From contig NC_092571.1 of the NCBI RefSeq assembly GCF_037975245.1, positions 6,284,001-6,348,000 on the forward strand: a stretch of DNA of 64,000 bases, written 5' to 3'. The notes under the pieces were generated by a model. That model was not told the DNA's origin, ran no database searches, and saw nothing but the letters and a program-made list of their open reading frames with translations. The DNA is from Apostichopus japonicus. Its lineage: Eukaryota; Echinodermata; Holothuroidea; Aspidochirotida; Stichopodidae. A program made the translations under genes and the position numbers. Shown in pieces: positions 894-49,600 of this stretch; the stretch's first letter is position 1; each line of letters opens with the position of its first letter.

Positions 894-3800
894 GTGGTGG
901 CTGTTGCTGATCCAAATGAGAAAGCCTTGAGAAGGATGAAGGAAGCCCATAATATTCCTGATGATAATATCCATCGAGATTGGAAAGAGATTGCAACAAA
1001 AGACAAATATGCTGAATTTGTGGTAGTTGCAACACCAGATAGACACCATAAGGTGCAGTATGTGTAATAAGTGATACCTTAACCAGAGGCAAAGCCAGAG
1101 GGGGTGGGGGTAGGGGGGGCTCACAGACATTTTCAGATAAGAAACAGTGGATGGCAAACAAGATAGAAGAAGCTATGATATATATGATAGTGAATAGGAT
1201 ACTTGTCCTGATGGATGGCACAGTGTGATCTGCTTCTCAGAATGCTTTCCTCATGAGCTACACGAGACACAGACCGAGATTTCTCTGGACAAGTTAACTC
1301 ATTAAAAGTTCTGTGCATCATATGAATCATGATAGTCGTCGTTAATAAACACAAAACATCTTCATTTGCGTCAGTATAGAAGTAACATACCTGTGTATAC
1401 CTATCAACATGTACTATTATAATGTCCCTAATATAAACAGGGCCACAGCCACTGGGAGCATGGGGACATGCCTCCTCACCCAAATTTTCTTCCAAATGGC
1501 TTTCATTTTATATCACATGTTGCAATGTCATATACACAAATGTAGTTGAGATTATGGAAATGATAACACCATTTCACATCTAAGCCCCCTTGCTGCAACA
1601 AAATTTTCTCGTAGAGCACTCTCCCATTGAAACTCCTCCTCAGGACAGATGTCACCAACTTTTGTGCTCCCCCACCCGCACCCCCATGAAAAGTCATATC
1701 AATAAAAGTGTTGACTAAACTTACAATCCCTGACTTGTTATATGGAAACAAAAATATGTCTTGCACCCTCACACCACTCAGGCTGGCTATGCACCTAGTA
1801 CAAGGATATATTTAGCAGGTCAGATGATATCAAGTGTACATTTGTTTCTTCACAATCAACTGTTCACAAAATATATCTTCTTTTAAGCTGTGTCCTACTG
1901 TTTTGTATAGTTTAGTAAGTAATTATAAATCAGGTTTTATATGAATGTCTCTGTATCTGGGAGGCTGCAATTAAGCACTTAAATTGTCACTAATATTTTT
2001 GTAGGTTACATTTTGATTTCTCTTGTGATTTTGACTAGGATCCTACTGTCAGCTTTGCAAAGAAGGGTTATCACATCTTACTGGAGAAGCCAATGGCAGT
2101 GAGTATTTCAAGTTAATCATATTGAAAGGACATTTTAGTGCAACTAATAAAACTAATCTTAAGTTGGTGTAAACTGTATAGCCAATAGGCTGCACATGTT
2201 GTATATATCTGCTATGGACTTACAGCTAATGTGTAAATTTAACAATTTGTTGTGACATCTATATAACAAAATAATATTTCTTGTGCTTATTGGGGCCAAA
2301 GACATGATTATCATATGCAACTGCCTGCTTCAACACAACAGAAGCATAAATGGGTAACAGAAGACAGAATGGTTGTTAAATAGGACAGTGTTTCATCAAC
2401 ATTAGCTCAGCATAAATGTATAGCTGCTAGAGAGAAATACTTGTTGAAGTACAGTACTCCAGTCAAACCAGAGTTATTGCTTTTGGCATTCTCACTTTGT
2501 ATCATTTTATATTACACCCACTAGTAGAAAGATTTGTGAGGAGCAGTATGTGATCTTTCCCCATAATAGCAGGATTGTGATTCTTATTTAGTAGATACAT
2601 CAGATAGTCAACTTTGTCACTTTAAATAATTGAAGAAAATTCAATGCTGTGATTTTGTTTCAGATTTCTGAGGAAGATTGTAAAGAAATTGCACATGTCT
2701 GTAAACAGCACAAAGTCATGCTTGGAGTTTGCCACGTTCTACGCTACTTTCCACCAATGCGCAAAATAAAGGAAATTATCATGAGTGGAAGAATCGGTGA
2801 TGTGGTGAATATACAGCACTTGGAACCTGTAAATATTTAAAATTTTATATGTATTTTTTAGATACAAACCTTGGTCAAATCTATGCGAAGTAAATCATGT
2901 TTGATGCCTTGCCAAAGGCAGAAGGAATCTATGCGATGGTGTTGGCGTGTGTGTTTGGGTGTTTATATGACACTTGCTCGTAACCCTCTAACTTCAGAAG
3001 GATAAGTGGGGTACATTTCATATTTGGTATGTAGGTGCCCCTTAGGTAGAACTGGTTTGGGATTGTTGTTGATGTCAGCATGGGTCAAAGTCTGAAAACA
3101 TCATTCACAAGAAGTGGACAGTACAGGAAGTTCAAACTTGGTATGTAGCTTGCAGTTGGTGAGCAGACAATGTAGTATTTTATGTGATTGTCATAGGTCA
3201 TTGGAGGTCAACAGACGGATAAAAGTGTGAAAATCTAATAAACATTATATCTCAAGGAAGGTCGCCTGTGCAGTTCTTATATTTGGTATGTGGATTCCCT
3301 GTGATAAGTTCAGCAAACCCAATTGTTTGTGATGGAGGGCAAAGGTCATTTGGGTTCAGCAGAGGGCAAAATATGAATATTTCAAAAGTGCTTTTACCTC
3401 CAAAACTAGAGCATGAAAGGAACTATATGCATGGTATGATAGCCTTGTTTGTGTATTGTATAGTTTGTACACAATCTGATGTAGGTCAGAGTTCATTTAG
3501 AGTCACCAGGTGTCAAAACATCAATACTATGCAAAGAGAGACTTCTAATTTGCTTCAAGTCAATAGTTGTTTAAGGCTAGCAGAATTCAATCCCTAAAAA
3601 CCTTTCTTCTCAGTTAAAGTGGTCAGTAAAAATGCCTTTGGTTTCAGCATGAAATTTTGTGCAAAAACATGGTGTACAGAAAAGCACATACTTGAACCTT
3701 AATTGATATTGTTGTTATAAAATTAAGAACCTAATAAGTAATTCTTGAAAGTTTACACCATGTCAGAGTAATTTTTCATTGCTCTCACTATCTTGGTATA

Positions 3801-9800: not shown

Positions 9801-12099
9801 TTGACGTATTATAGATCCTCCTGCAATCAGGAACTCGCAAAGAAGCCTCATTGGCTTATCAAAGCCACAAGCTGACCAAAGTCAGTCTCTTACATTCATA
9901 TTTAACGTCCATGATTATGAATTGTCAATTGTCAACAACTCTGTAACTGGAGTGACTCAAACCGGGGACCTTATGATTGAAAGGCACCAGTGTTAACCAC
10001 TGAGCTAACACTCCATAAAGTATCTTACTACTAAAAACTTGTGTATACTTAAACAGTCATACTCAGAAACAGACAATATCTGTACTCAATGCAATGTTCT
10101 CCATTACAATATTGCTATTTAGTAAGACAACAAGTACTAGAATGTTAGGTTGATCAGTCACAAGTGTATATTTTTATCATAATTGATTTCTATGCAGGGT
10201 GAAATCAGATTTGACAACCAGGCATTACAGGTTTATGACTTCCTCTCTGGAAAACAAGAGACTATAACTTTGCCATCAGCTCCACCAGAAAAATCCAGCC
10301 TACAAGGACATGACGGCGCAGACTATTTTACATTCCATTCTTTTGTTAAAGCCGTCCAGGTGAGTCTCCCACTAGATAATCCCCGGGATTACAGAGACAC
10401 AAACCCAACCATGATCTATAGCGTATATGTCAGAGCAACGTACACAAACCCAACCATCAGCTATAGCATATATGACAGGGCAACGTACACAAACCCAACC
10501 ATCATCTATAGCGTATATGACAGAGCAACGCACACAAACCCAACCATCAGCTATAGCGTACATGACAGGGCAACGTACACAAACCCAACCATCAGCTATA
10601 GCCTATATGACAGAGCAACGTACACAAACCCAACCATCAGCTATAGCCTATATGACAGAGCAACGTACACAAACCCAACCATCAGCTATAGCGTATATGA
10701 CAGAGCAACGTACACAAACCCAACCATCAGCTATAGCGTACATGACAGAGCAACGTACACAAACCCAACCATCAGCTACTGTATAGCGTACATGACAGAG
10801 CAACGTACACAAACCCAACCATGATCTATAGCGTATATGACAGAGCAACGTACACAAACCCAACCATTAGCTATAGCGTATATGACAGAGCAACGTACAA
10901 AAACCCAACCATCATCTATAGCGTATATGACAGAGCAATGCACACAAACCCAACAATCAGCTATAGCGTACATGACAGAGCAACGTACACATACCCAACC
11001 ATCAGCTATAGCTTATATGACAGAGCAACGTACACAAACCCAACCATCATCTATAGCGTATATGACAGAGCATTGTACACAAACCCAACCATCAGCTATA
11101 GCGTATATGACAGAGCAACGTACACAAACCCAACCATGATCTATAGCGTATATGACAGAGCATTGTACACAAACCCAACCATCAGCTATAGCGTATATAT
11201 CAAAGCAACGTACACAAACCCAACCATCAGCTATAGCGTATATGACAGAGCAACGTACACAAACCCAACCATCATCTATAGCGTATATGACAGAGCAACG
11301 TACACAAACCCAACCATCAGCTATAGCGTATATGACAGAGCAACGTTCACAAACCCAACCATCAGCTATAGCGTATATGACAGAGCAACGTACACAAACC
11401 CAACCATCATCTATAGCGTATATGACAGAGCAACGTACACAAACCCAACCATCAGCTATAGCGTACATGACAGAGCAACGTACACAAACCCAACCATCAT
11501 CTATAGCGTATATGACAGAGCAACGTACACAAACCCAACCATCAGCTATAGCGTACATGACAGAGCAACGTACACAAACCCAACCATGATCTATAGCGTA
11601 TATGACAGAGCAACGTACACAAACCCAACCATCAGCTATAGCATACATGACAGAGCAATGTAGAGTATTAATAATGTAGACACTGAAACCAATGCCATGA
11701 TTAATTCACATAAAAGGGGTTCAACATTTCAGAGTCAGTTCTTCCAAAACCCATCTCCATTACAAAAAATAAACATTTTTAATGAATAAAGAAAACCATA
11801 AAAAGTTGAAGCACATTTGGTTGATGATTTGATCAGGTCTTCAGGCTTGTGTGTGGGAAAAAAAGAATCTCTCTAATGGAATATTTTTGTTGGCTGTTTG
11901 AGATGACAATTACCTTTATCACAATCTGGTTGTTGTCATTGTTCTATGGTTCTGTTTACCTCTGCAGACAAATGATCCATCTCTGATATTGAGTGGACCA
12001 GATGACTCGCTGGCCAGTCATTTGCTGGTGTTTGCAGCTGAGAAATCCCGACGTCAAAACAGGATTGTGGATACTCTTACTGAATTACCTAGCTGGTAG
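894..12099 (+). CDS. Gfo/Idh/MocA-family NAD(P)-dependent oxidoreductase, 5'-partial, nine exons
   Basis: Exons by eye: 894-1052, 2039-2098, 2664-2828, 6223-6353, 6766-6820, 7156-7248, 7643-7777, 8098-8199, 10198-10359, 11968-12099 (6223-6353 and 6766-6820 share a split Arg codon; all other joins are phase 0). That makes ten coding segments, about 397 residues and a TAG stop. The first exon gives the second half of a Rossmann fold (VVAVADPNE, later [11 protein letters not shown]). The second ends in LLEKPMA, containing the EKP motif whose lysine is catalytic in this family. The third begins the substrate-binding domain ([12 protein letters not shown]). The segment at 6223 carries [11 protein letters not shown], the position of the conserved catalytic His/Asp. 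A Cys-rich stretch ([19 protein letters not shown]) is typical of a bacterial-like subgroup. The N-terminal GxGxxG exon is missing from the window. The substrate is unknown; sugar, inositol or amino-sugar dehydrogenases are family precedents. The protein is probably soluble. Confidence 0.88.
2880..3560 (+). repeat. dispersed repeat with AGGTCA-type motifs, copy 1
   Basis: This block in an oxidoreductase intron starts with a CCTTGCCAAAGGCAGAAGG phrase and ATGCGATGGTGTTGGCGTGTG. It continues with diverged ~140-bp units carrying variants of AGGTCA..AAAGGTCATTTG. The same phrases recur near 8250 and 8610. The repeat family is not identified. No coding potential is convincing. Confidence 0.6.
4121..4977. 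mobile_element. non-autonomous inverted-repeat element with 47-bp perfect ends
   Basis: Positions 4121-4167 and 4931-4977 are perfect reverse complements over 47 bp (outer end GCGCGTACC, inner end GTGGTAC), enclosing 763 bp without coding potential. Alternating GCGCGC/GTACGCGCG sequence borders both ends. The structure fits a non-autonomous DNA transposon in the oxidoreductase intron. I could not define a target-site duplication or a superfamily. Confidence 0.65.
5130..5956 (+). repeat. dispersed repeat, single-copy version of the segment expanded at 10397
   Basis: Several landmarks occur in the same order here and at 10397-11965: CAAACCCAACCATCATCT..AGC..TATGACAGAG (near 5168), GACACTGAAACCAATGCCAT (near 5398), AAACCCCATCTC (near 5757), and GTCTTCAG.CTTGT followed by CTCCCAAATGGAAT and GACAGTTATCTCTATGA (5816-5930). 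Here the first segment is present once; downstream it is a 45-bp tandem array. Confidence 0.6.
5466..5702. mobile_element. MITE-like element, ~237 bp
   Basis: The ends CCTGTCTCCCCACAAC (from about 5467) and GTTGTGGGGAGACAGG (ending about 5700) are inverted. Imperfect complementarity continues inward, with GTGCCTAGAAT on the left against ATTCTAGGCAC on the right. No open frame. The element sits inside the 5130-5956 repeat region. Confidence 0.6.
5957..6195 (+). repeat. ~79-bp tandem repeat, 3 copies, next to an acceptor
   Basis: Three nearly identical units containing AAAATCACACCAAATGCCCA and AATTAGGATGGACAAAGTG. The array ends about 27 bp before the exon that begins at 6223. Confidence 0.9.
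8230..9300 (+). repeat. dispersed repeat with perfect DR1 motifs, copy 2
   Basis: Tandemly arranged, diverged ~140-bp units with the theme 'AACACGATATCTCAAGAA ... ATACTTGG ... CCCTATTG ... GTGGAGGTCAAAGGTCATTTG'. The 13-mer AGGTCAAAGGTCA occurs perfectly at 8763-8775 and 9034-9046. It lies in the intron between the exons at 8098 and 10198 and is related to the blocks at 2880, 14440, 28160 and 39650. Confidence 0.7.
9948..10014 (-). repeat. tRNA-like (SINE head) sequence
   Basis: Read on the minus strand, it opens with GGAGTGTTAGCTCAGTGG (box A-like core at 9997-10007). It later has GGTTTGAGTC (box B-like, 9954-9963) and closes with TCACTCC, which pairs with the opening GGAGTG. The T-arm is too short for a working tRNA, so a tRNA-derived SINE is more likely. 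The flanking 9830-9947 would be its body. Confidence 0.5.
10397..11661 (+). repeat. 45-bp minisatellite, ~28 copies, in the last oxidoreductase intron
   Basis: The unit is TATGACAGAGCAACGTACAC followed by AAACCCAACCATCAGCTATAGCG, with common variants CATCATCT or CATGATCT and CATGACAG. Because 45 is a multiple of three, long frames stay open: two on the + strand (units reading [15 protein letters not shown] and [15 protein letters not shown]) and one on the - strand. These are repeat by-products, not genes. The array starts 37 bp after the 5' splice site at 10360. The upstream exon frame runs into it without a stop until the TGA at 10822-10824. Confidence 0.95.
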
Positions 12100-18102: not shown

Positions 18103-21100
18103 CTAACACACAGTAAAGAATACCTGTGGGTCCAGAGATGAATTATTAAAGCACTTACATTGCTTGGGTATTCTCAGAGGCTCATTGTCTTGTACTGTGC
18201 ACTCGTGTAGTTTCCCTCTAAAATAATAACGTACTTTAAGACTTTTGTCTTCACCAATGCATGGATCATAGAATCCTGGCAAGCTGGTCTGAAATGAAAA
18301 TTATATTATTAGAGAAAAATGGAAATGCATAGACATGTTAATCTTATCAAAGGGATAACTCTCGAAACAATTCATGCCTGTTGTTTGCGATAAGGATCAT
18401 TCGTGCCTCCATGAACTTTTTGTTCTTAAATTCTTAGTAAATATGAAAATTATGTATACTTAAATTCAATTGATACTTTCTCACATTAGATATAAACATT
18501 ATTTGTCTATGTACAATCTGTTAAACTTTAAGAATTATGCACAAAAGTTCAGCTTAAATGTTCATTTTGACATTGAAGAGCAAACAAATATAGCACAGTA
18601 TTAAATTCATATACTCAATGAAGTTACAATAAATGATTGCCATATGTGCAGCAACAAACATTCATCCAGATTGCAGAAATATTAACATTAAACTGATGTG
18701 TTGTTCTTAAAATAATTTAATTATAAGTTATTTATGGATAACCGGCACGGAAGTACTGAGTCTCAACTCATATTTCCTGCAAATACATAACATAAAAAAA
18801 TGTATCTATGTTTTATAAAGTAATGGAGAAGTATTCAGAACTAAAGAAATCACTCCCTGGTGATTAGTACAACTTAATTGCATTGACAAAAATGACATAA
18901 ATATTTGAATATTTCTACCAGCAGTTGCTCTACCTTTGATACATCTGTGAGCAGTAGCTTAGAGTCCTTCACTTGACATTGTAGTGGTATGGTTACATCA
19001 ATAACACTAATGTTATCTGGTCCATCTGCAGTGACATCTGAAACTAATTTGCCGTACCAGGCCTTCTCAAGAATCAAGCCTTGCCTGGAAGTTTCAACTT
19101 CTCTGTTCCTTTGAACTACATCTTGCATAAGCCTTATCTGAAAAAGAGCATGAAAGTATACCCTATCAGTGAAGGAAGATTGCATGGGCTACAGAGGGTA
19201 TATAAATAGAGTATGTAAGTAAACCCTATCAGTAAAGGAAGATTGCATGGGCTACAGACAGTATATAAATAAGAGTGTGTAAGTATACCCTATCAGTGAA
19301 GGAAGATTGCATGGGCTACAGACAGTATATAAATAAGAGTGTGTAAGTATACCCTATCAGTGAAGGAAGATTGCATGGGCTACAGAGGGTATATAAATAG
19401 AGTATGTAAGTAAACCCTATCAGTGAAGGAAGATTGCATGGGCTACAGAGGGTATATAAATAGAGTATGTAAGTAAACCCTATCAGTGAAGGAAGATTGC
19501 ATGGGCTACAGAGGGTATATAAATAGAGTATGTAAGTAAACCCTATCAGTTAAGGAAGATTGCATGGGCTACAGAGGGTATATAAATAAGAGTGTGTAAG
19601 TATACCCTATCAGTGAAGGAAGATTGCATGGGCTACAGAGGGTATATAAATAGAGTATGTAAGTAAACCCTATCAGTGAAGGAAGATTGCATGGGCTACA
19701 GACAGTATATAAATAAGAGTGTGTAAGTATACCCTATCAGTGAAGGAAGATTGCATGGGCTACAGAGGGTATATAAATAGAGTATGTAAGTAAACCCTAT
19801 CAGTGAAGGAAGATTGCATGGGCTACAGACAGTATATAAATAAGAGTGTGTAAGTATACCCTATCAGTGAAGGAAGATTGCATGGGCTACAGAGGGTATA
19901 TAAATAGAGTATGTAAGTATACCCTATCAGTTAAGGAAGATTGCATGGGCTACAGAGGGTATATAAATAGAGTATGTAAGTATACCCTATCAGTTAAGGA
20001 AGATTGCATGGGCTACAGAGGGTATATAAATAGAGTATGTAAGTAAACCCTATCAGTTAAGGAAGATTGCATGGGCTACAGACAGTATATAAATAAGAGT
20101 GTGTAAGTATACCCTATCAGTGAAGGAAGATTGCATGGGCTACAGAGGGTATATAAATAGAGTATGTAAGTAAACCCTATCAGTTAAGGAAGATTGCATG
20201 GGCTACAAACAGTATATAAATAAGAGTGTGTAAGTATACCCTATCAGTGAAGGAAGATTGCATGGGCTACAGTCAATATATAAATAGAGTATGTAAGTTT
20301 ACCCTATCAGTGAAGGAAGATTGCATGGGCTACAAACAGTATCAAAACAGAGTATGTAAGTATACCCTATCAGTGAAGGAAGATTGCATGGGCTACAGAC
20401 AGTATATAAATAAAATAGCTACTGAATGCATTGCACGGTTTTCCCTGATCTGTACTTGACTGTAACACTCCTGAGCTACTAAATTTATGCATTGGACGGT
20501 TTTCCCTGATCTGTAATTGAATGTAACACCACTGAGCTACAGAATGTACTGCATGGATGCCACTGATTAATAGCTTCATACAAATGACAAGCTCCACAAA
20601 CTTCTCAACCTCACTATTGGTATATGCGCATGCGATGTGTGAAATCTGACAATGTTATCTCATGATATCACTGTTTATACAAAGCTCAACATGTTCATTT
20701 GCTTACTGTCTATGACCTTTGATCTCATAAAAGAAAAAGAATGATTACCACAAGGGTATTATATTGTAAAGAATGTAACTTTAGGGAATGCACACTGTTA
20801 CAATTTTGGAATTCCATAAACAATTTTATCATGTCCAGTTCTATCTGAACCTGGCAAGTCATGACTTTACTAGTAGATAAGGAATCTGTCAGTCACATGC
20901 AGGCTTGAGTTATCCATGTTACATTAGCACAGACCATTACAAAAGTGTTCAGTCAAGTGTGTCAGTCCCAACTTGGTCAGTGCTGAACTTGGTACCTTGT
21001 ATTACTAAGGTACATTATTATCTTTTGTTTACATGCAATGCTCATTTTAAAAAGTCAGCAACCATGTAAAGTGGTTACTGCAAGATGCCTGAGGTCATAA

Positions 21101-24100
21101 ACCTGTGTGATATGTCTAAACATGGCTTTAGATGCTCTACAGAGATGTGTGCTTAATGCACAGATTGTTGGGTTAGAGAGTTTTACAAGCCAAGGTGTCA
21201 TACACACACATGCAAGCTATCACCATCCAATAGGTTAATTTTGCTATCCTAAGGAATAAAGAATGAACCTTCTATTCCCTGTACTTAGTATTGCTGCATA
21301 CCAAGTATGACATCTATCCAAGTTGCCATATTCAGAAACACAATTTCATGCTGGCTTCCTACAAAATTTGACATCCAATGCGGACACAACCACATATGTA
21401 TGAGGAATCATAACTGGAACAGTAGCAGTTATCATTAAACCAGAGCAAAGAAAAATAAACCATCTCCAATGCGAGCGCAACCACATATGTATGAGGAATC
21501 ATGACTGGAACAGTAGCAGTAATCATTAAACCAGAGCAAAGAAAAATAAACCATCTCCAATGCAGACACAACCACATATGTATGAGGAATCATAACTGGA
21601 ACAGTAGCAGTTATCATTAAACCAGAGCAAAGAAAAATAAACCATCTCCAATGCGAACGCAACCACATATGTATGAGGAATCATGACTGGAACAGTAGCA
21701 GTTATCATTAAACCAGAGCAAAGAAAAATAAACCATCTCCAATGCAGACACAACCACATATGTATGAGGAATCATAACTGGGACAGTAGCAGTTATCATT
21801 AAACCAGAGCAAAGAAGAATAAACCATCTCACCTCTGTTTCTGCTTCTTGTTTTCTTCTTTCTCTCTCAGCCGTATTACTTGCTCGTTGCTTTTCTAATT
21901 CACTAAAAAAATATATATATATATATTTATATATTGATCCATGCAACCAATCATAAATATTTATCTGGGATCAGCTGATGACCCAAGCTTCAAAAAAGTC
22001 TGGAGCAACGAGAAGCATGAATTCAAAAATACATTAGGACCACATAATACATCCGAAGTTCTCAAGTACTTTTGCTTTTTGCAAATTGAAAATGATATCT
22101 TTGAGAGGCTCGAAGTGGCCTGCAGACCGCCTATTTTATAATCCCTTTATAAGCTGTGCTGTAAAAATGCAAGCTTTGTTTCACTGTAATCAACCTTTAT
22201 ATTTATATCACATAATTTATTGTCTATTTGTGATTCGTCTCAGTGATAAGGATTTCAAGGGATAGTTCCAAACTTGATGGCTCCTTCTATTGCTAAGATT
22301 GTGCACAAATTTGTGATGCCATAAATGGGCAACAAATCAAAGCTGTCATTGTATGTCACAGATGCAATAAGGACACCTCCATAATAGTAATCATTCATTG
22401 ATGTGACGAATTTACTTGATCACACCCTTACATATATGCAGTAGCAGGTTTGCCCATATATGGCATACTACGAATTATTGCACGGTGCATTCAAATGATG
22501 CATTTCCTAATAATAAGATAAACTGCAATATTTTCTATCTAAACCAAGGAACAAGGCATGCAGATTGGATCAGTGGGATTTCCTTCACAAACCCTGTATT
22601 ACATAAATGTTAAATCTCAGCCCTTTGATCTATTAAAGTAATTACCTTTCCTTCTGCTTCTTCAAGAATGGTGTCACAATGACAGCTTTGACAAAGAAAT
22701 ATATTGCTATAGGTGCTAGGGTTCCATATAAAATTGCCTGAGGACAAATTTCTTGAGAGAGGTGGACTGGAAATAGGAAAACCTGGTTGGCTCGAACCAG
22801 TCTGTGGATATATGAAGAGAATAAAACACATTACAATGAGAACACAAGATGGCAAACCATGGAGTTGCAGATCTCATCTCCTTCATGACTATACCCTGGC
22901 ATCCTAACTTTGCTAAACAGTATGCCATTTCTTCACACAGTTAGTTTGCACTTAAACAGACTTACAGTGTAGGAGTTTGCGACACTTTTTCGCAAAGCAT
23001 AGGCCACTTTGACCTACATTGACCTTGAACTGTAGCAACCATGTAAGTTCTATTTTAATATTTGTCTGATAATTCTCTACACATATTGTGGTTTAATGAT
23101 ATTTCCTACATGTTGACAAGCAGAAAAAAGGCTGAAACCCAATGTATATTAACCTCTGACATCATCAATCATGCAGGCACAACTTTAAATGATCAGGCAC
23201 CTACACACTAAGTTTGAACATGATCGAACATACGGTTTAGGAGTTTGCGACACACCTCTTCTAAAATTTTAGACCATTTTGACCTACAGTACATTCCACT
23301 TTGACCTTAACCCTTAAGAACCACTATTTTAAAATGCATGTCCCATTATTCTCTACATTTCTTATGGTTTAATGATTTTCAAACATACTGACTAGCAGGT
23401 AATGGTTAGAAAAGTTAACCGGGTATTTGACCTTTGACATCACAATCACGCAGGTATGAGTTTTGGCACCTACCCACCAGCTTTGAACGTTATCATACTT
23501 GGAATTTAGACCAAATTAACGTTTGACTCCGACCCTTAACATTTAAATCTGTCCTATTTTAATAATTGTCCCATCATTCTTGATATATCATGTGGTATAT
23601 TGACCTTTTTTTATAAGTGGACAAGCAGAAAATGTCTAAAAACCAATTTTTAGGTTTCTTGACATTTGACATCATATATCATGCAAGCATGATGTTATAT
23701 GGTCATGCACCTACTCATCAAGTTTGAACTTGATCAGACTAACGATCTAGGAGGAGTTTGTGACACACTTATTGCTCACACACACTTCCTGACATTTCTG
23801 ATGTGGGGTGAAGTACAATATCTCATCTCCCTATACATTACATGTATGATGTAGGGAGATGAGATAAGAATACAAGAAAAACCAAATGAATTGTGTCCCA
23901 AACACTAGTACTTCAAAAGAAATATTTACTGATGATGGAATACAGTCTCCTTTTCCAAATGTTCATATAATATCATAAGATTGGACTACAAAAGCATTCA
24001 CCATAGATGTATCTAAGCCTACAAAACATCTAATTCAAGAGGAATTACTGTCAGGGAGTGGGTGAGGAGGGTTGACAAGGGAGGAGACTCCAGATGGATT

Positions 24101-30100: not shown

Positions 30101-33100
30101 ATTTATATTCCAGGATAAAAGGAAACCAGATATATATTCCAGCATTAAAGGAAACCAGATTTATATTCCAGCATAAAAGGAAACCAGATATATATTCCAG
30201 GATAAAAGGAAACTAGATTTATATTCCAGAATAAAAGGAAACCAGATTTATATTCCAGTATAAAAGGAAACCAGATTTATATTCCAGAATACAAGGAAAC
30301 CAGATTCATATTCCAGCATTAAAGGAAACCAGATATATATTTCAGGATAAAAGGAAACTAGATTTATATTCCAGAATAAAAGGAAACCAGATTTATATTC
30401 CAGTATAAAAGGAAACCAGATTTATATTCCAGAATACAAGGAAACCAGATTCATATTTCAGCATTAAAGGAAACCAGATATATATTCCAGGATAAAAGGA
30501 AACCAGATTTATATTCCAGCATTAAAGGAAACCAGATTTATATTCCAGCATTAAAGGAAACCAGATATATATTCCAGGATAAAAGGAAACCAGATATATA
30601 TTCCAGGATAAAAGGAAACCAGATTTATATTCCAGAATAAAAGGAAACCAGATTTATATTTCAGGATAAGAGGAAACCAGATATATATTCCAGGATAAAA
30701 GGAAACCAGATTTATATTCCAGAATAAAAGGAAACCAGATATATATTCCAGGATTAAAGGAAACCAAATCTATATGCCAGGATAAAAGGAAACCAGATGA
30801 TCCAGATCTTTATTCCAGCATAAAAGGTTCAGATAATCTAGGTTTACATAACAGGGCTCAAAATTAACAGTCGTCAGATACGACCGAAATCACATCGGAC
30901 AACTTAAAACCCTGCTTAGGTTATCCGACGGAAAACTAGCTTACAGTATTTGCCGAAAGTGTTCAACATTTAGAACAAACCTTGGAAAATCCCTATTCTT
31001 TCAAAATATCATTTGATATCAAATAAACCTTCAAGTTTACGAACATAACATTACCTGAAAGAAATTCATGGAAATTGATAAAATTACAGATAATTATGAT
31101 GTTTGTGAAATTCCTTTGATCTTACATGTTGACAGTATTCCAAGATGAATTTTAAGGAACTAGATAAAATTATGGAAGGACAGAGGATGGAAAAAAAGAC
31201 TCTTACTCTAGGATTGGTACTCTGTTGAAGCTTTCTCTCTGCATTCTCTTTTTGCAATCTCTGATATTCTTCAATTATCTCTGCCGGAGTCCTTGTACGA
31301 GGGACCACCTGCCAATCTGCTTCAAGGCCTTTCTTACCGTAGACATCATAAATGGCTCGCTTTTCTGGCTGACTTAAAACTGACATAAAAATGGAAACAA
31401 AGTTCTTAAATCCAAGTGTTTTCTTACATATTTCAGTGAGAAGTTTAATATGGTGGCTACGAAATGAAATGTTTACCGACCTTTATTCCATATACAGACA
31501 GGGTAGTACCAATTATAATCATTGTGTTCCATACATAAAACCATGATGTTGTGATGAAAGTTGTTGAGAAGTGAAATACTTCACATCAACATCAAAGTTA
31601 TCTAAAACAGCTTGCCTGGTTATGTTTGTGACACCAAACTGATTGGTCAGACGTTGCTATGCTTCTGGAAAGTACTTTCAAGCAATTATACATTAATATT
31701 TGTTGGACATGTGTAGAAAGCTTACAGAAACACAACTTACAAGTAATAACTGAAAAACTCACTTATGAGTTTTATGCAAGTCAATTATAATAGAAAATAA
31801 ATCTTAAGTTTCACAATAAGCCTTGTATGCAGTTTTCCATTTATCTTAATGATAATTACTGTATTAAGTATGTATAATATATAAAGAGGCATATCATTTA
31901 CTAAGTACTCATTAACTACTCATTGTACAGTGCTATGTACTACTCTTTTACTACTCATTGTACAGTGCAGTACAGTACAGAACAGTGTACTACTCATTTA
32001 CTGCTCATTGTACTGTGCAGTGCAGAACAGTGTACTACTCATTTACTACTCATTGTACAGTGCAGTGCAGTACAGTGTACTACTCATTTACTACTCATTG
32101 TACAGTGCAGTGCAGTACAGTGTACTACTCATTTACTACTCATTGTACAGTGCAGTGCAGTGTAAGTACTACTCATTTACTGCTCATTATACAGTGCAGA
32201 ACAGTACAGTGTACTACTCATTTACTACTCATCGTATAGTGCAGTGCAGTGCAGGACAGTACAGTATAGTGTACTACCCATTTAATACTGATTGTACAGT
32301 GCAGAACAGTACAGTAAACTACTCAATTTACTACTCATTGTACAGTGCTGTACAGTGCAGTACAGTGTACTACTTATTACTCATTGTACAGTACAGTGAA
32401 AGTACTACTCATTTACTACTCATTGTACAGTGCAGTACAGTGTACTACTCATTTACTACTCATTGTACAGTACAGTGTAATTACTACTCATTTAATACTG
32501 ATTGTACAGTACAGTGTACAGTACTAATCATTTACCTGTGTATGCTTCTTGGACCTTTGTAAAGATTGCTTTAGCAGCAGCTTTGTCCTCCTCTGATTCA
32601 TGCTTATCTGGGTGATAAAACATGCAAAGCCTGCGATAGGATGATTTCAGTTCCTCATCATTTGCCTGTTAAAGATTATTAATAACTAATAATTACCATT
32701 ATTATAATAATATTTAACTGCTGCCTCCATCATAAAGCCAAAGCTACTGTAAGTTGGTTGCATTCATATTTTCTAACTTTCAACAACCAGGAATATGCCA
32801 CTTTGGTAAGGAACAATGATCAAACTTACCTCCAAATATCAGCGCTCAGAAAATCGTCACTTAACATAGAGTGATGCTTGTCATTCCTCCCCCCCCATTG
32901 GGGGGGGCCCTCCCCAACTCTCTTACAAACTTGGGAGAATTTGCTTCAAACAATTATTTGACTGTATTCTTTTAACTTAACATGTTACAAATTATTCAAA
33001 ATTCCATGATGCAAAATGAAAAACTGCTTAGTATAGAATGGCAGCCCTTTGTACAGTCTACTGATGCTAACTTTAAATATATATTTGATGTAGTTCTTCT

Positions 33101-37681: not shown

Positions 37682-40600
37682 TTAGAATTTGAGGTGAAAT
37701 CCTGGTCCTACAGCTGATGTTCCATGTGTTGGAAGTGTAAGTCTAAATCCCTCAGATTCATCATCTCCCTGGAATGAGAAGCAAACAGTCATTATTAACA
37801 GCAAGGAAGTATCAAATTCAACCTTAATCTGATTAATAACCAAGGTTCCTGTAGGCATCAAATCCTCAATAATTCAAAGATACTTTATTCAGATTTTCTG
37901 ATTCATTACACCCACAGGCCACTTTGATATGTCTTAAGTCATTTGAGTAGAACTAATGACAAATCCAAAGATAAAATGTCTCAAAACAATTTGAAGACAG
38001 GTTCCTTACACATTCTATAGTATTTGCTACTCAATAATAAAGTTTGAAGCCTGTGCAGGTTACAAAGTGGCTACTAGACATTTTGTCTGTAACTGACTAT
38101 TAGAATGATGGATATGCTCTTTTATTTGGTCATTACTTACCAGTTTATTAAACTGCATTCCACCCTCTGGAGCCTTAGGGCTCCTTTTAGCTGTCCTTGA
38201 CTGTTCACTCTTTGCTGGCCATGTTGGAAACATGGACTCATCTATTGGTTGAGGAGATTCCTTGAAATACTCCTGTTTTAATGCATCTTCTGCTGATATC
38301 CTCTTGGCTGGATTGTATGTCAAAAACCTGAGATGGACAACTCAAATGATTAATTATAAAATGCATTGTTACAATTAAGTGGCATCAGCCTCAAAAACAG
38401 GATTCAGGATTGGATGATTTTCTTACAACATGACAGTTTTCTACTCATTCATAAGATAATACTACAAAGAACATTGATGTCTTTCAAACATGTTGAACTG
38501 TTAGGAATACACAGCCTTTTGTAATCTTTGTTAGATAAGAATTAAGAGATAACGTAACTATTGCAATATCATGGCTGAATTGTACTTAACTCCTCACTTA
38601 TTTTAACCAATTGTTGTCATTTAGAATACAGAATATTATTGAAATTTATAATTTCTTTGTCCTTAATGGTGTACTGTATTATTATTGCATTTTAGTCTAC
38701 TAGGATTCTAATATCATGATGGAGAACATACCATACCAAGTTTAGAGGACATGGCCTGCTTAAACATATTGAAATGTATTTCTTTCTGTCACTGTCTTGA
38801 TGTATTCCCAGAAATTTTACTACACAACAAATGTTGGTTGACTCCTAGGCTTGTACACATATGCACATGTGAGCTACAAAACTTTACATTTACTCATAGA
38901 TCAACATTCTTTTGGTTAGAACAGTAGACATATGCCTATACAAATACAGTCAAGTTTAATGCACAATAAAATATTGCCTTAATCGGAGGCAAAGCAATCT
39001 TTGGAGCCATACCAGTAATTCTGTGTGTAAGCAGAATAAGACTCACCTATTTAACAAATCAAAGCCCAGGTCAGTCAGATATGTTCCAAATCGGTTTCTT
39101 AAATTGTTGTAAGGGTACTCTGTAAAGCTCATCTTCTTCACAGCAGGGAGTTCATTGTATCCTGGCCAAATTTTCTCACTGGGTGTACCAAGCTCCTACA
39201 ATAAAGACCAAGATGTACAGAAAAGTTTAACAGGCTGGAAGCATACCACAAATTAGTAAAGTAATAGATATGTAATCACTGGGCTAAGAAGAATTTATTA
39301 ATACATTGTTTGAGCCATAGTAAGCCTCCCATCTTTGTTAGTAGAATAATCTACTTAAGATGATATGATTGCACACACTGTACTATCATGCTAACACTTG
39401 GGTTACTTCAAGAGATCAAAACAGAAAAAAGAACAGACAATTTTAACCAGACAGCAAAACTGCAGTATGGTTTCGATGATGCTACATGAATAATCTTATA
39501 TGATTGTGACACACTAGGCTGTAGAGTATATAGCCAGGATGAACAACATACTTCAATCTAAGTAGTACAGCAAAAAGAATTGAGATATGACAAACAATCT
39601 TCACATTGGCAGCTGATGACCGAGATAAAAACTTTTCTTGTATTAAGCATACAGATTGATCTCTACCAAAGACAAAAGGCTTCTTCTACTCAATGTGGTA
39701 CATGTGCGAATTTAACCCTTTGGTCCCCAAGAATTTGCGTCTGGTTTGCCTCTTAAACATCTAACTTGGCGACAGTTAATTTTTGTTAACAGCGTCTGGT
39801 TTGTTACTACATCCAAACATGAAGATTTTATTTAGCACTGAATCTTGACAATTGCAAAAGATGATGGAAAACTTCAACAAAGGAAGTAAAGATAAAATAC
39901 CTTCATCACAATGATATCGTTCAATACATTCAGCATGTACAAACAGTACAACGTTTCATTGCACACCTTTGTATAGAGGCATGTTTGCAGAGATGTAGAT
40001 AACGACACATATAAGTCAATGGAGATTTGGTGGAGACTTCTTGATTCATATCTATGGATGCCCTTAAGCTAATTTCCAATTGCCAACAGCCTCTCCTATT
40101 CTAATGAGGCATAACAAACATTTTATCTGGTAGGCTGGTTGGTGGGAGATTTGGTAGATTATAAAACAACTTTTAAACAATTTGACCCCTGGTGACTCCA
40201 AATGACCTTTGACTTCCACAAAAAACAATAGGCTTCTTGTACATAACATGTCACAACTACATTCTAAATATGAGATTGGTCCAAGCTTCCCTTCTTGAGA
40301 TATCATGTTTACAAGGTTTTCACAATTTGACCCCTGGTGACCCCAAATGACCTTTCACCTCCTCTAAAAACAACAAGGTTCTTCTAATCAATGTGGTATC
40401 CCTACACATTAAATGTGAGGTTGGTCCAAGAATCCCTACTTGAGATATCGTGTTTACAAGCAAGGCGTCACACACACATACTCATCCGTCTGCATGACTA
40501 CAAAGGTTATGATTATCATCGAAACCAATGAGAAAGTGATAGAGCCCTGGAGAGAAAGGGGCAGATAAGGTGAGTAGAGTAAGTAAAGAATGCTCCATAC

Positions 40601-43600
40601 TTTAAAGATCCTGTTGAGTTGATCAATTTCAGATCTGCCAGGGAAGAGAGGTTTCATAGTCAGGAACTCAGCAAATATACATCCCACAGACCACATGTCA
40701 ATCTTGACAGAATATTCCTGTTGAGGAAAAGGTCACAAAACAATAACACCATTTTAATCTTCCAAATGAAACATTATTAAAGACACTTCTTCTGACATTC
40801 TTTGGTTTATCAGATTACTCATGAATGTTTCTCTGCATCAATGATCTACATTACACTGGTAATGGGTATGCTTACTCAAGACTACTCTACATTACACTGG
40901 TAATGGGTATGCTTACTCAAGACTACTCTACATTACACTGGTAATGGGTACGCTTACTCAAGACTACTCTACATCACACTGGTAATGGGTACGCTTACTC
41001 AAGACTACTCTACATCACACTGGTAATGGGTACGCTTACTCAAGACTACTCTACATCACACTGGTAATTGGTACGCTTACTCAAGACTACTCTACATCAC
41101 ACTGGTAATTGGTACGCTTACTCAAGACTACTCTACATCACACTGGTGATGGGTACGCTTACTCAAGACTACTCTACATCACACTGGTGATGGGTACGCT
41201 TACTCAAGACTACTCTACATCACACTGGTGATGGGTACGCTTACTCAAGACTACTCTACATCACACTGGTGATGGGTACGCTTACTCAGGACTACTCTAC
41301 ATCACACTGGTGATGGGTACGCTTACTCAAGACTACTCTACATCACACTGGTGATGGGTACGCTTACTCAAGACACTCTACATCACACTGGTGATGGGTA
41401 CGCTTACTCAAGACTACTCTACATCACACTGGTGATGGGTACGCTTACTCAAGACTACTCTACATCACACTGGTGATGGGTACGCTTACTCAAGACTACT
41501 CTACATCACACTGGTGATGGGTACGCTTACTCAAGACTACTCTACATCACACTGGTGATGGGTACGCTTACTCAAGACTACTCTACATCACACTGGTGAT
41601 GGGTACGCTTACTCAAGACTACTCTACATCACACTGGTGATGGGTACGCTTACTCAAGACTACTCTACATCACACTGGTGATGGGTACGCTTACTCAAGA
41701 CTACTCTACATCACACTGGTGATGGGTACGCTTACTCAAGACTACTCTACATCACACTGGTGATGGGTACGCTTACTCAAGACTATTCTACATTACACTG
41801 GTGATGGGTACGCTTACTCAAGACTACTCTACATTACACTGGTGATGGGTACGCTTACTCAAGACTACTCTACATTACACTGGTGATGGGTATGCTTACT
41901 CAAGACTATTCTTCATTACACTGGTAATGAGTATGCTTACTCAAGACTACTCTACATTACACTGGTGATGGGTATGCTTACTCAAGACTACTCTAAATTT
42001 CTATCAACTCCGACAAACATTTATTCAAGTCCTTCTACATGCTACAGATTATTTATCAAGACTATCTTGTTTGCACAATGAAAATTATTTTTAATTCATT
42101 CTGTACCATAACAGCAGTAGTTACACGTTCACAAACATATCCAAAGCTCAGTGGCATCAGAAGCTAATTTTGATATGGAGGGCACATCATTTGGAGTTAA
42201 CGGACTGATACCTTATTTTGTGAAAATATCTTTCACTGATACTGATTAATCTTGAAGGACAATATCCTACTAGTAACAAATAACCAATAGCTAATGAGAT
42301 ATATTGAAATAAACAGCTCACCTTTATCGCTAATAGTAGTTCAAGAGCTATATACCATAGGGTAACTACCATTGGGGTGTATTGTGCTCACCTTTATCGC
42401 TAATAGTAGTTCAGGAGCTCTATACCATAGGGAAACTACTATTGGGGTGTATTGTGCTCACCTTTATAGCTAATAGTAGTTCAGGAGCTCTATACCATAG
42501 AGTAACTACTATTGGGGTGTATTGGGCTCACCTCTATTGCTAAAAGTAGTTCAGGAGCTCTATACCATAGGGTAACTACTATTGGGGTGTATTGTGCTCA
42601 CCTTTATTGCTAATAGTAGTTCAGGAGCTATATACCATAGGGTAACTACTATTGGGGTGTATTGTGCTCACCTTTATTGCTAATAGTTCAGGAGCTCTAT
42701 ACCATAGAGTAACTACTATTGGGGTGTATTGTGCCCACCTTTATTGCTAATAGTAGTTCAGGAGCTCTATACCATAGGTAACTACTATTGGGTGTATTGT
42801 GCTCACCTTTATTGCTAATAGTAGTTCAGGAGCTCTATACCATAGGGTAACTACTATTGGGGTGTATTGGGCTCACCTCTATTGCTAAAAGTAGTTCAGG
42901 AGCTCTATACCATAGGGTAACTACTATTGGGGTGTATTGAGCTCACCTTTATCGCTAACAGTAGTTCAGGAGCTCTATACCATAGAGTAACTACTATTGG
43001 GGTGTATTGTGCTCACCTTTATTACTAATAGTAGTTCAGGAGCTCTATACCATAGGGTAACTACTATTGGGGTGTATTGTGCTCACCTTTATTGCTAATA
43101 GTAGTTCAGGAGCTCTATACCATAGTGTAACTACTATTGGAGTGTATTGTTTCAATGGTGAACCATACTCCCTGGCCAACCCAAAGTCACCAATCTTCAA
43201 TATTCCTTTGTGGCTGAGGAGGAGGTTGGATGTCTTCAGGTCACGATGTAATATCCAATTTTCATGCAAGTGATTGACTCCTCGCAGCAACTGTTGCACT
43301 AAACACTTGGTTTCACCTTATCAACAAGAATGAAGAAAATGTCAAATAAGTTTCCATGAAATGAAATGTTTTTCTTGTTATCCTTGTGACATAAGAAAGC
43401 TGAGATCTTAAATCTAACTAAATATGTTGTCACTGACCTTCATGCTAAGGCAATGTTTCTTCAAAAATCTTAAAGCAGCTCTCTTTCTTCGATCACCAAT
43501 TTCATCCTGTTTTACCAAACGTGTCAGGTGTTACTCAAAAAATGGACAGCATTTCATCAAACTAAAATTTTTTGCTTTTCACCAAACAAATGTGAGTCAT

Positions 43601-46600
43601 TAATGGTTCCATTTTATATCATAAATTGTTGTGATATGGATGATTTCTTGTATTGATTTAAATCCCATGCAAGAAGCAACTGAGAAATTTTAAACAAGTA
43701 TAAACTGTTCCAATATTTAAATGAAAACTGATCAGTGAACCAAATCAAATTAATGAACAAGTTACTAATATGCAATACTAGTTGGTTGTCTAGTGAGGCC
43801 ACGGTTGCTAGTCATTGATCACAATAAATACAGTGTAACATGTGATAAATACACAGAGAGATATACTAACCTATTGTGAATGGTTGTTTCATGGTTTCCA
43901 TCAGGCTCTTGAGGTCATGTTCAACATAGTCCATCACTATGTAGATCTTATCCATGTTACTGCCGACTACTATTTCCTGCAAATATAACATGTAAAACAC
44001 AACATGTTGTTCCCTGTTGTCATATTGTGAGTGAGTTGATACAATGATGAATAACAGCCAAAAATGAAATCAATCAATCAAAACAACAAACTGAGTTCAC
44101 TTTAAATGGTATGCTTTTCTGTGCTGCCCCATTCATTGCCATGAATTCAGCTTTGTAATTTTATTAATAGCATATATTAGTCCTGCCTTTGCAGCAATTT
44201 TAAAGCCTATTTGCCAATTGTTTGGTAAATATTGTACTCAGGGCAGTGACATTTTACATACAGGTAATGATGCAGACAAGAGCAAAGAAAAATTCTCTGA
44301 ACCAGTCCCGGACCAAAGTACTGTAAATACACCAAAGCAATGTAAGCTTCCAGCAAATAGAGAATGATAGGGATATCACAGTGTTATCAATATACACACA
44401 AATACAACCTGCTAAAACAAGTAATCAAACTGCTAAACAACTATGGGAGAAATAAACCCTTACCCTAGGCAGCCAATTACAAGTTACAGACAGAGAGGAA
44501 TGTCTCATGCTAGCAGTCTGAGAGTAGAAAATACGACCCACCCAATCCTACCCAGACCTAGATCTATTCTATGAAATCATAGCACCACAACGAGCAAACT
44601 ATCTTAAAACCAAATTATAGAACAGCATGACAACACCATCAATCAATCCCTGCTGTAAAAGGTGTGCCACAGCATTTGCCAAATCCTCCTGCAAGAGTCA
44701 TGCTTTATTTAACTCAGCTATGCATTAATACAGTAGCAGCTATCCTCCTGCATGAGTCATGGTTTATTCAACTCAGCTATGCATTAATACAGTAGCAGCT
44801 ATCCTCCTGCAAGAGTCATGGTATTCAACTCAGCTATGCATTAATACAGTAGCAGCTATCCTTCTGCAAGAGTCATGGTTTATTAATCTCAGCTATGCAT
44901 TAATACAGTAGCAGCTATCCTCCTGCAAGAGTCATGGTTTATTAAACTCAGCTATGCATTAATACAGTAGCAGCTATCATCCTACCTTAGTCATGGTTTA
45001 TTTAACTCAGCTATGCATAATACAGTAGCAGCTATCCTCCTGCAAGAGTCATGGTATTCAACTCAGCTATGCATTAATACAGTAGCAGCTATCCTTCTGC
45101 AAGAGTCATGGTTTATTAATCTCAGCTATGCATTAATACAGTAGCAGCTATCCTCCTGCAAGAGTCATGGTTTATTAAACTCAGCTATGCATTAATACAG
45201 TAGCAGCTATCATCCTACCTTTGTCATGGTTTATTTAACTCAGCTATGCATAAATACAGTAGCAGCTATCATCCTACCTTAGTCATGGTTTATTCAACTC
45301 AGCTATGCATTAATACAGTAGCAGCTATCCTCCTGCAAGAGTCATGGTTTATTTAACTCAGCTATGCATTAATACAGTAGCAGCTATCCTCCTGCAAGAG
45401 TCATGGTTTATTCAACTCAGCTATGCATTAATACAGTAGCAGCTATCATCCTACCTTAGTCATGGTTTATTTAACTCAGCTATGCATAAATACAGTAGCA
45501 GCTATCCTCCTGCAAGAGTCATGGTTTATTCAACTCAGCTATGCATTAATACAGTAGCAGCTATCCTCCTGCAAGAGTCATGGTTTATTTTTTTAATTCA
45601 GCTACGCATTAATTCAGTAGCAGCTATCCTCCTGCAAGAGTCATGGTTTATTAATCTCAGCTATGCATTAATACAGTAGCAGCTATCCTCCTTCAAGAGT
45701 CATGGTTTATTAAACTCAGCTATGCATTAATACAGTAGCAGCTATCCTCCTGCAAGAGTCAAGGTTTATTCAACTCAGCTATGCCTTAATACAGTAGCAG
45801 CTATCCTACTGCAAGAGTCATGGTTTATTAAACTCAGCTATGCATTAATACAGTAGCAGCTATCCTCCTGCAAGAGTCATGGTTTATTCAACTCAGCTAT
45901 GCATTAATACAGTAGCAGCTATCCTCCTGCAACAGTCATAGTTTATTAAACTCAGCTATACATGAACACAGTAGCAGCTATCCTCCTGCAAGAGTCATGG
46001 TTTATTAAACTCAGCTATACATCAAAACAGTGGCAGCTATCCTCCTGCAAGAGTCATGGTTTATTCAACTCAGCTATGCATTAATACAGTAGCAGCTATC
46101 CTCCTGCAAGAGTCATGGTTTATTCAACTCAGCTATGCATTAATACAGTAGCAGCTATCATCCTGCAAGAGTCATGGTTTATTTAACTCAGCTATGCATT
46201 AATTCAGTAGCAGCTATCCTCCTGCAAGAGTCATGGTTTATTCAACTCAGCTATGCATTAATACAGTAGCAGCTATCCTCCTGCAAGAGTCATGGTTTAT
46301 TTAACTCAGCTTTGCATTACTTCAGTAGCAGCTATCCTCCTGCAAGAGTCATGGTTTATTCAACTCAGCTATGCATTAATACAGTAGCAGCTATCCTCCT
46401 GCAAGAGTCATGGTTTATTTAACTCAGCTATGCATTAATACAGTAGCAGCTATCCTCCTGCATGAGTCATGGTTTATTTAACTCAGCTATGCATTAATAC
46501 AGTAGCAGCTATCCTCCTGCAAGAGTCATGGTTTATTTAACTCAGCTATGCATTAATACAGTAGCAGCTATCCTCCTGCAAGAGTCATGGTTTATTTAAC

Positions 46601-49600
46601 TCAGCTATGCATTAATACAGTAGCAGCTAACAATACTTACTCTGACTGTGACAATGTTGACATGCTGAGCTTTCAGCAAAGTATTTATTTCTCGCAGTGA
46701 AGTTATCGGGAAACCTTCTTTCTCCTTTTCCATTTTTAACCGTTTCAGGGCAACAATTTCATCTACAGATGAAGAAATATGTTAAATATTATCAACTCAT
46801 GACTTTTCTTAACTCAGTGGAATGAATATGAGTAGCATAGACAACTGCCAAATTCTGGTGTAACATTGTCTGTTCTCATAAATAAAAGGGAAAAAAGATA
46901 CATCCTCTAACAGAGGGCTATCAAACAAATATCATATATGATTCAACATTGTCTAGATCAAATTGACCTCTCACTTTGAGCAACTCATGGCATCACTCAT
47001 CGCAACTCACGGGATCACTCATCGTAACTTGTAGCATCACAAATCACAACTTGTGGCATCACTCATGGTAACTCATGACATCACTCAGAGCAACTCGTGG
47101 CATCACTCATTGCGACTCATGGCATCACTCATCCCAACTCATGACATTACTCATCACAACTCGTGGCATCAATCACAGCAATTCGCGGCATCATTCATCG
47201 CAACTCATGGCATCACTCATTGCAACTTGTGGTATCACTCAGAGCAAATCATGACATCACTCATCGCAACTCATGACATCGCTCATCGCAACTTGTGGCA
47301 TCACTCATCGCAACTCGTGGCATCAATCACAGCAATTCACGGCATCATTCATCGCAACTCACAGAATCACTCATTGCAACTCGTGGCATCACTCATCGCA
47401 GCCCATGACATCACTCATCGCAAATCGTGGCAGTTTCACCTTCCAGTTTTAATGCCAAACATTTAACAATGAATGGTCCTGGTCCTATAAGTCTCTTGAC
47501 CAAGTAGCCTTGTAGTACTACTCACCATTTCTCTTTTCTCTGGCCCTGTACACCACTCCATATGTTCCTTCCTCTATTTTGTTCAGGTGCTCAAACTCTT
47601 CCACATTTCTGCATCCAGCCAGAGCTGGGTAGTATGCTGGCAGTGTTTCCTTCAGCTCTATTGGTGAATGGTCTGGAGATGCTGGAAGAAACTTCTCTTC
47701 TTCTTCTTCCATTTCTTCTTTTTCTTCAACTTCTTCTTTATCATCCTTCTTCGGCGACCCATCAAATTTTGACGCACTTGCATCTGATGGTAAAAGAATC
47801 AGAGACAATATGTACCACGATCTTGATTTTTCCAACATTCATAACTATTACCAACACATTTTCAATATTGTTTAATTTCAAACTTCCTTTCAATTTTTCT
47901 TCAGTGTGCCTGTTTATACTAGACCTACAACACTCACAGCAAAAGTAGCTCACACTTTACAGAAGTAAAATTGTTGTTTTCCTGAGATGTAATTCAACCT
48001 AACAATGTTTTCGAGATTTAAACTTGTTTATTGTCTTCCTATCATCAGGTTCATTACTGGCTGATAACATCTTCTTGCTTCGGAGCATATCTACAAAATA
48101 ATGTACCAACTGCTGAAAAAGTTAGCTAAGTCTTTAAGACATAATAAACAAGAACTTTGGTTATTATATATTCATTACAAGAAAATGAACTATCAAGATC
48201 TAATTATGTGTTGGTTCTTGACATAATCTATTTACTTCATACAGAAAAAGATCTACAAAGAAAAGGCCTAAAGAAACTCTATCACCAATCACAAAAAACT
48301 GTTTTGCCTCAACTCATTGTACAAAAACTTCTAAATGTACAATTATGCAGACTACACATGTGAACAGTGTCCAATAGTCTTATATCGCACAGATCCTGAA
48401 AAAAAGCCAGAAAGTTCTGATAAAAGAACAATATATGGGCCAAAGCCAATATTGGTCATCCTCAAATCCCAAAAGTAAAGTTACTTCTCTGGGAGAAATT
48501 TATTTTGGGCTCATTGCAGTACTAATTGACACTTAAGAATTAAAAAAAAAAAATCCAAAAAATTTCGTTATCAGTGATATAGAGGTGGTTGAAATCTAAA
48601 AAGATGCGCACTAGGTGCGAGGGACGGAATTTAGTCAAATTGACCTAGCTGAAAATTAGGATGGGTGAGGTAAATTTGGTTTTCTGTAATTTGATGTTCG
48701 TCTCTAGTGCAAATTATTAATTGGAAAAGTTTCGAATTTTTTTTGAATAAAAATGAAGAAAAATAGGAAAAAACGGTTCAAAATTCCGTCCCTCGCATTT
48801 TTTGACACAATTTTTCTTTTTTTCGAGAGAGGAAATAGTACAGTATGCATAAAAATCTGCAAAGTATCAACTATCAGTGACTTGAACATCTGTAGTGATG
48901 AAAGAAACTGAACAAAAATATGAATGGTGCATTATGGGTAATCAACATTTTCGCGAGGGACGGAATTCAGTGCGAGGGACGGAATTTTGTTACAGTTTGG
49001 TGCTACAAGTCTGTAGTCCTAATCTGTTGCAAATAGAAATAGTTGGCAGAACATACGCGTAAATTTCAACGACACAACTATAGCAGATTTCGACAGTATG
49101 CTGAACTTGCAAAGTTGAAGAAGGCACTTCCAGGAACAAACAGTGCTATCATCCAAGTGGACTTCAGCGAGAACTATGCTTACACCCAAAAGAATGAAAT
49201 ACAGTCGGCATACTTTGGCCACGAGAATTTCACATTGTACACTGTTTGTGCATGGTATGCTGAAGGTGAGGAAGTGAAGTGCAAAACCTACTGTGTCATC
49301 AGTGATTACATGTCACATGACAAGTTCTTGGGCTTGCACTGCAATAAAGCTATCATTGAAAAGGTCCAACAATTTGTTCCAAATCTGGATGAGGTTCACT
49401 TTTAGTCCGACGGCTGTGCTAGTCAATTTAAATAAAAATATTGCTTTACCTTCCTTGCCACCCAGTACCCATGTGACAATCGTATAACATGGCGTTATTT
49501 CAAATCTCACCCGACCCGGTAGATGGGGTGGGGGGAAAGATAAAATCAAGTGTGTACAGTGATGTCAAAGCAGGTAAAACTGTCATCACTAGTGCCAAGC

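Follow-up and report, generated by a model that had tools for sequence, protein, structure and literature searches.

In Apostichopus japonicus the end of a CDK11 kinase exon, together with the 5' splice site that follows it, is repeated twelve times in tandem within the stretch of 64,000 nucleotides analysed here (the window). The array is most likely a neutral minisatellite of the type called 'mirage' in amphioxus, spliced at the exon-proximal donor and without a selected function. The sequence itself shows the anatomy of the array, an origin shared with the array in a second CDK11 copy, the conservation of the exon copy and the relaxed evolution of the intronic copies; the choice of the first donor and the passivity of the others are inferred.

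The kinase exons of CDK11 span approximately 47.7 to 38.1 kb of the window on the minus strand. The exon adjoining the array, here exon D, had been attributed to CDK11 in a preliminary description of this DNA, and tblastn, a PDB match to CDK11B and a Pfam Pkinase match (84.6 bits) agree with that attribution. When exon D is joined in phase 0 to the next exon, E (junction 43087 to 40717), the top PDB match is CDK11B (7ukz, 214 bits). The elements of this part of the gene are as follows.

43087–43316, minus strand: CDK11 exon D, from the catalytic loop to the end of the activation segment (tblastn exon coordinates)
40601–40717, minus strand: exon E (EYSVKIDMW...), starting at 40717
42316–43150, minus strand: 70-bp × 12 minisatellite, exon end plus start of the donor, running from the exon into the intron (TRF)
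43081–43086, minus strand: authentic donor GTGAGC, first of 12 (unit comparison)
42316–43016, minus strand: eleven downstream donor copies (unit starts and lengths, donor sequences)
43045–43047, minus strand: in-frame TAG reached with any downstream donor, the 14th codon beyond the true junction (frame reading)
42870–42939, minus strand: unit 4, identical to unit 9
42525–42594, minus strand: unit 9, identical to unit 4
40845–41995, minus strand: another minisatellite (41 bp × 28) of this intron, about 128 nt upstream of exon E (TRF)
44683–46629, minus strand: 59-bp × 33 minisatellite in another CDK11 intron (TRF and exon coordinates)

For the 835 bp of the array TRF returned a period of 70, 12.0 copies, 93% match and a score of 1467, in line with the twelvefold repetition of exon end and 5' splice site described before. 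The tandem unit spans the exon–intron border. Unit-by-unit comparison resolves each copy into approximately 64 nt of exon end followed by the six intron nucleotides GTGAGC, and the final ~64 nt of exon D are unit 1. This replaces the division into 56 exon and 14 intron bases given in the preliminary description, where the bases ACAATACAC... were taken as intron; with these bases the next exon-derived unit begins. The downstream donors have their first G at 43016, 42946, 42876, 42806, 42738, 42671, 42601, 42531, 42461, 42391 and 42321. GT is present in 12/12 copies and GTGAGC in 11/12, copy 6 (42738) reading GTGGGC. The identity of units 4 and 9 is a sign of higher-order duplication within the array. 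The last unit runs on into unique intron, GTGAGCTGTTTATTTC, which marks where the intron originally started. Beyond the junction the frame stays open for 13 residues (39 nt) and then meets TAG, in both CDK11 copies; the earlier statement that use of a downstream donor brings in a stop 14 codons past the junction is thus borne out by frame reading.

A DNA search of the genome (671.58 Mb, 35 contigs) returned a single additional place; it lies on the same scaffold (C11) at a distance of 3.29 Mb, in the same orientation and at 95% identity. There the array occupies the same position with 11 units, against 12 in the window. Its presence in both assembled copies argues against a one-off assembly error. 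A 67-bp unit is common to both arrays (W7 = P5) and the array end is shared too; hence, the array predates the split of the two copies and has a single origin. Twenty kb around the second copy match window positions 34741–56708 (larger blocks 88.7–96.6%), and collinear matches continue to about 62866 at 96–98%. With a 3-kb probe, C11:8.00 Mb pairs with 11.75 Mb at 93%, and C11:6.16–8.00 Mb is collinear with 9.42–11.75 Mb in the same orientation, at 93–98% at the points probed, with an interspersed repeat on one side only. A search with window positions 1–12000 was swamped by an interspersed repeat. Because collinear matches occur at points 1.7 Mb apart with a divergence of a few per cent, the two copies are probably two haplotypes laid end to end in one scaffold (an unpurged haplotype); a real duplication is the less probable reading. 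The unit count differs, 12 to 11, between two assembled copies that are probably, not certainly, haplotypes. Seven kinase-domain exon stretches of the two copies encode identical protein (tblastn), and over 1086 nt their coding sequences differ by 11 synonymous and 0 non-synonymous changes.

The two copies also differ in other repeats. The stretch 38987–39032, single-copy in the window, is an array of about 44 copies of 69 bp in the second copy (C11:9607358–9610265; ~4359–7266 of L003). This array starts ~17 nt after another donor and was rejected as a mirage, being intronic. The 59-bp × 33 array of the window (44683–46629) has shrunk to approximately 100 bp in the second copy. Elsewhere in the assembly, COX1 lies on C35, and C29:14745–31219 holds fragments resembling COX1 that can be read if TGA codes for a residue; they are probably further mitochondrial sequence. 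Among four genetic codes tried on the mitochondrial COX1, the echinoderm code (AAA = N, ATA = I) gives the canonical reading.

The copies had been described as keeping both the codons and the donor. This holds for the donor and mostly fails for the codons: the peptide is unchanged in 3 of the 11 intronic copies of the window (4/10 in the second array), and the other window copies carry K>E, R>I, A>V and T>S replacements, a triple substitution, a codon deletion and 1-bp deletions. Units W6 and P10 each have a 1-bp deletion. Over the exon-derived part of the 21 intronic units of both arrays there are 17 distinct substitutions, ten non-synonymous (one a stop) and seven synonymous, and no coding constraint was detected on these units (P 0.13–0.24 for a synonymous excess, the range reflecting the assumed transition bias). 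Across both arrays GT is found in 23/23 donor copies and GTGAGC in 22/23. This low variation could reflect constraint, six bases being too few to tell it from homogenisation.

The exon copies, at the edge of the array, encode the conserved CDK11 peptide in both gene copies and deviate from the unit consensus by synonymous changes only. Their alleles 9T and 21G are absent from the intronic units, while 24A and 57G are shared with them. Positions 43087–43149 hold 4 synonymous differences between the gene copies in 63 nt, versus 7 in 1023 nt elsewhere (Fisher P 0.0025 for a region chosen after inspection), and two of the four differing alleles also occur in intronic units. These observations hint, as a lead only, at occasional exchange between exon end and array, with damaged versions purged by selection.

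Donor arrays elsewhere in the genome were searched for with three donor motifs, each in three copies at 53–84 bp spacing, a pattern matched as well by arrays whose period is a fraction of this spacing. The motif AAGGTGAGC gave 32 matches versus 5 for its reversed control, the complete list amounting to five arrays, two of them CDK11; AAGGTGAGT gave 48 versus 24. Matches of these two motifs overlap within arrays and are not independent. The broad pattern AGGTRAGT gave 891 matches. Its three controls were its reversal (710), an unrelated motif of equal composition (385) and that motif reversed (756), and against them it shows no clear enrichment of donor motifs in arrays. Nine arrays were taken from its first 100 of 891 matches, covering C1, and C2 as far as 13.6 Mb. 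In total 20 distinct arrays were examined; eight G-rich places (AAGGTGAGTGGGAGGGG and similar), all from the AAGGTGAGT search, were left out as simple repeats (C2:15.03 Mb, three on C3, C5:1.47 Mb, C7:3.89 and 5.47 Mb, C16:38.45 Mb). Thirteen of the 20 arrays have an exon end as their first unit; homology identifies nine of these, and the other four are recognised only from an open frame with splice signals.

CDK11, two arrays: exon end by homology
YJU2: exon end by homology (Pfam 47.4 bits, PDB YJU2)
Amino-acid transporter, two neighbouring copies: exon end by homology (35.5 and 36.2 bits)
SPTLC1-type (L014), C2:10.27 Mb: exon of 24 aa without a Pfam match, assigned by PDB matches to plant LCB1 (1.1e-5) and SPTLC1 (3.8e-5)
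MSH3: MutS_V 68.4 bits, best PDB match Msh3
IFT122 (L031), C20:2.14 Mb: 71.4 bits
FERRY3: 42.2 bits
L013, L015, L030 and L035: open frame and splice signals only, L013 being the weakest; no Pfam match, and for L015 none in PDB either

No clear exon end is seen in the remaining seven arrays (L010, L011, L012, L029, L034, L036, L037). By a rough expectation (from GC content and an assumed ~160,000 introns) 45–50% of AGGTRAGT words would be real donors anyway, and 13/20 is no clear excess over this (P 0.11–0.26). A 96-kb sample outside arrays held 10 AGGTRAGT words versus 8 reversed, which would lower the expected share and raise the excess; that sample is too small to decide. Whichever expectation holds, arrays over real donors are not rare, and a set of donor arrays at exon ends in unrelated genes of one genome is new here. 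An acceptor-side pattern gave 179 matches versus 83 reversed. Large TTTGCAGG-bearing arrays were seen with it at C6:14.524–14.528 Mb and C8:14.33–14.35 Mb.

At the 13 exon-end loci the next intact donor equals or exceeds the first in its match to the U1 consensus CAG/GTAAGT, a result partly built in by the selection of arrays through a donor motif; later IFT122 copies match one base less. A stop codon precedes the next donor in 9 or 10 of the 13, depending on L013, whose frame is ambiguous (the likelier frame has a stop 8 nt past the junction, the other open frame one after the second donor). Three loci (L014, L015, L032) have no stop ahead of the second donor, and extended proteins are possible there. 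At L015 (C2:13.556 Mb) the donor array has 33-bp units that are in frame and open for 204 nt, and splicing at a downstream donor would extend the protein by copies of an 11-residue peptide. The fetched stretches after the conserved exons of IFT122 and the SPTLC1-type gene hold 42 and 40 downstream donor-like copies, respectively. Given a next donor that is equal or better and a stop before it in 9 or 10 of 13, the first donor is presumably the one on which most of these genes depend. For CDK11, the identical kinase-domain protein of the two copies, with exclusively synonymous differences, suggests that correct mRNA is made despite the array, and since CDK11 proteins are strictly conserved, use of the exon-proximal donor is the simplest reading.

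The array probably arose when a 70-bp stretch, spanning by chance the exon end and the first six intron bases, was duplicated in tandem. Unequal exchange or slippage would then have enlarged it inside the intron to 12 units in the window and 11 in the second copy. The exon-proximal donor would be chosen perhaps through upstream-anchored exon recognition or because it is transcribed first. The remaining donors would be passive intron sequence, any use of which would yield a truncated, NMD-prone transcript. Arrays of the same type at exon ends in unrelated genes speak for this neutral account. The alternative donors reported for human IFI6 (see below), by which passivity is not guaranteed, the little varied donor bases and the three loci without a stop count against it.

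Among the alternatives raised in the preliminary description, tolerated noise is the best supported, intronic copies being free of detectable coding constraint and similar arrays occurring in unrelated genes; positive evidence for a CDK11-specific switch or a U1 decoy was not found here. In the first of these, CDK11 would tune its own level by using a downstream donor under some conditions, so that a stop before the C-lobe leads to NMD or a dead kinase. Such a regulated switch would be served by the TAG that any extended isoform of either copy meets after 39 nt, by the retention of GTGAGC in nearly all donor copies and by the array's presence in both assembled gene copies. The same layout, mostly with the stop first, recurs however at unrelated genes, the intronic units show no constraint beyond what homogenisation could give, and the copy number differs; we consider the switch improbable. 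It had been the favourite and was dropped once the same arrays were found in unrelated genes, as these leave little reason to seek an explanation peculiar to CDK11. Still less probable is a passive sponge, in which the donors together would sequester U1 or protect the intron from premature polyadenylation. Twelve near-consensus donors lie within 835 nt, and the rows of IFT122 and the SPTLC1-type gene are longer still, but U1 is too abundant for one locus to titrate it plausibly, and the consensus units of the other CDK11 intronic arrays (41 and 59 bp) contain no donor-like AGGTRAG.

It is very unlikely indeed that the array is an artefact of assembly. Tandem repeats are assembly-prone, and this scaffold holds a megabase collinear duplicate, probably an unpurged haplotype. 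Against this, the two assembled copies are diverged and carry 12 and 11 non-identical units, the second having its own array with the diagnostic 67-bp unit, and typical HiFi reads are far longer than 835 bp. The published A. japonicus assembly, which we infer to be this genome, is based on HiFi and Hi-C (671.6 Mb, 34 scaffolds; PMC10344927).

The position of minisatellites relative to splice sites was recorded for the nine arrays of the window with a period of 15–200 and at least 4 copies. In six of them an edge lies no more than 40 nt from a splice site, which is a donor in five cases and an acceptor in one.

10397–11662: edge 10397, donor +38; the exon at 10 kb recognised by open frame and splice signals (a DDT match is below cut-off)
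21374–21830: edge 21830, donor +3; the exon at 21.8 kb recognised by open frame and splice signals
31936–32535: edge 32535, at a donor
CDK11 70-bp array: edge 43150, spanning the donor
CDK11 59-bp array, 44683–46629: edge 46629, donor +12, beginning 12 nt into its intron, where the donor starts at 46640
19141–20412: edge 19141, at an acceptor

The genes beside the arrays other than the 70-bp one are an unnamed gene, DnaJ/DNAJC11-like exons and CDK11. Taken alone, the window is unusual under assumed per-array chances (donor edges, P 1e-4 to 2.5e-3), and arrays cover 13.6% of it versus 0.65% of a 96-kb sample of twelve places. Of the seven arrays in 50 kb of flanking sequence none is close to a splice site recognisable when translations were inspected by eye (one array is cut by the fetched end), and for all 16 arrays together, again under assumed chances, P is 0.002–0.04 for donor edges and 0.01–0.19 for either site. 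A broader reading, that minisatellites in this genome are born preferentially at or near 5' splice sites, with donor arrays ignored by the spliceosome beyond the first copy, is entertained tentatively and seems rather doubtful. It is favoured by the five of nine window arrays whose edge is at most 38 nt from a donor and by the 69-bp array ~17 nt after a donor in the second CDK11 copy; the 0/7 of the flanks and the 13/20 not clearly above 45–50% stand against it. Such arrays might be seeded during transcription, by R-loops or U1-linked pausing at the donor.

In amphioxus, mirages are described as minisatellites spanning exon–intron borders in Adh3, troponin C, the globins BflGb6 and BflGb9, and PGBD5, and data including RT-PCR are reported to suggest that regular splicing is undisturbed (PMC3087553, PMC3902484). 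The CDK11 array resembles them as a minisatellite-like tandem duplication across the border with the authentic copy at its edge and splice signals (AG/GT) in many copies; in amphioxus, unit number differs between haplotypes and turnover occurs within the cluster, the edges excluded (PMC3087553, PMC3902484). It differs in belonging to another phylum, the echinoderms, and in that splicing was examined in amphioxus and is here judged from the DNA. In the human 6-16/G1P3/IFI6 minisatellite (Turri, Cuin & Porter 1995, Nucleic Acids Res 23:1854), downstream units are reported, by a paper citing that work, to be used as donors and to give three mRNAs. The reading of an exon-proximal donor in CDK11 would agree with the amphioxus reports and differ from this one. 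Both CDK11 and IFI6 present donor copies in tandem, the IFI6 unit reportedly measuring about 12 bp; unlike in IFI6, downstream donor use in CDK11 would, as far as sequence tells, truncate the protein. Tandem repeats at exon–intron borders in human segmental duplications are described as altering gene structure and possibly creating novel introns; they share the border position and minisatellite-sized units with the CDK11 repeats, which in contrast sit in an existing intron and leave the exon intact (PMC2812944). No echinoderm case of border-spanning minisatellites was recognised among the open-access papers listed, judged by titles and the beginnings of abstracts.

The phenomenon, described in the open-access papers found as mirages in lancelets and with a shorter unit in human IFI6, is thereby extended to an echinoderm. 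The spliceosome's choice among identical 5' splice sites is usually studied with built minigenes. CDK11, MSH3, IFT122, the SPTLC1-type gene, YJU2, FERRY3 and the transporter are natural cases in which the presumed real donor is followed by anything from several to dozens of similar ones, and most have a stop codon between that donor and the next. The arrays are also material for testing intron gain from repeated AG/GT units. The CDK11 array itself is real, of a known kind and most likely without function, and its value is that several genes of a single genome naturally carry such rows of donors, CDK11 among them.
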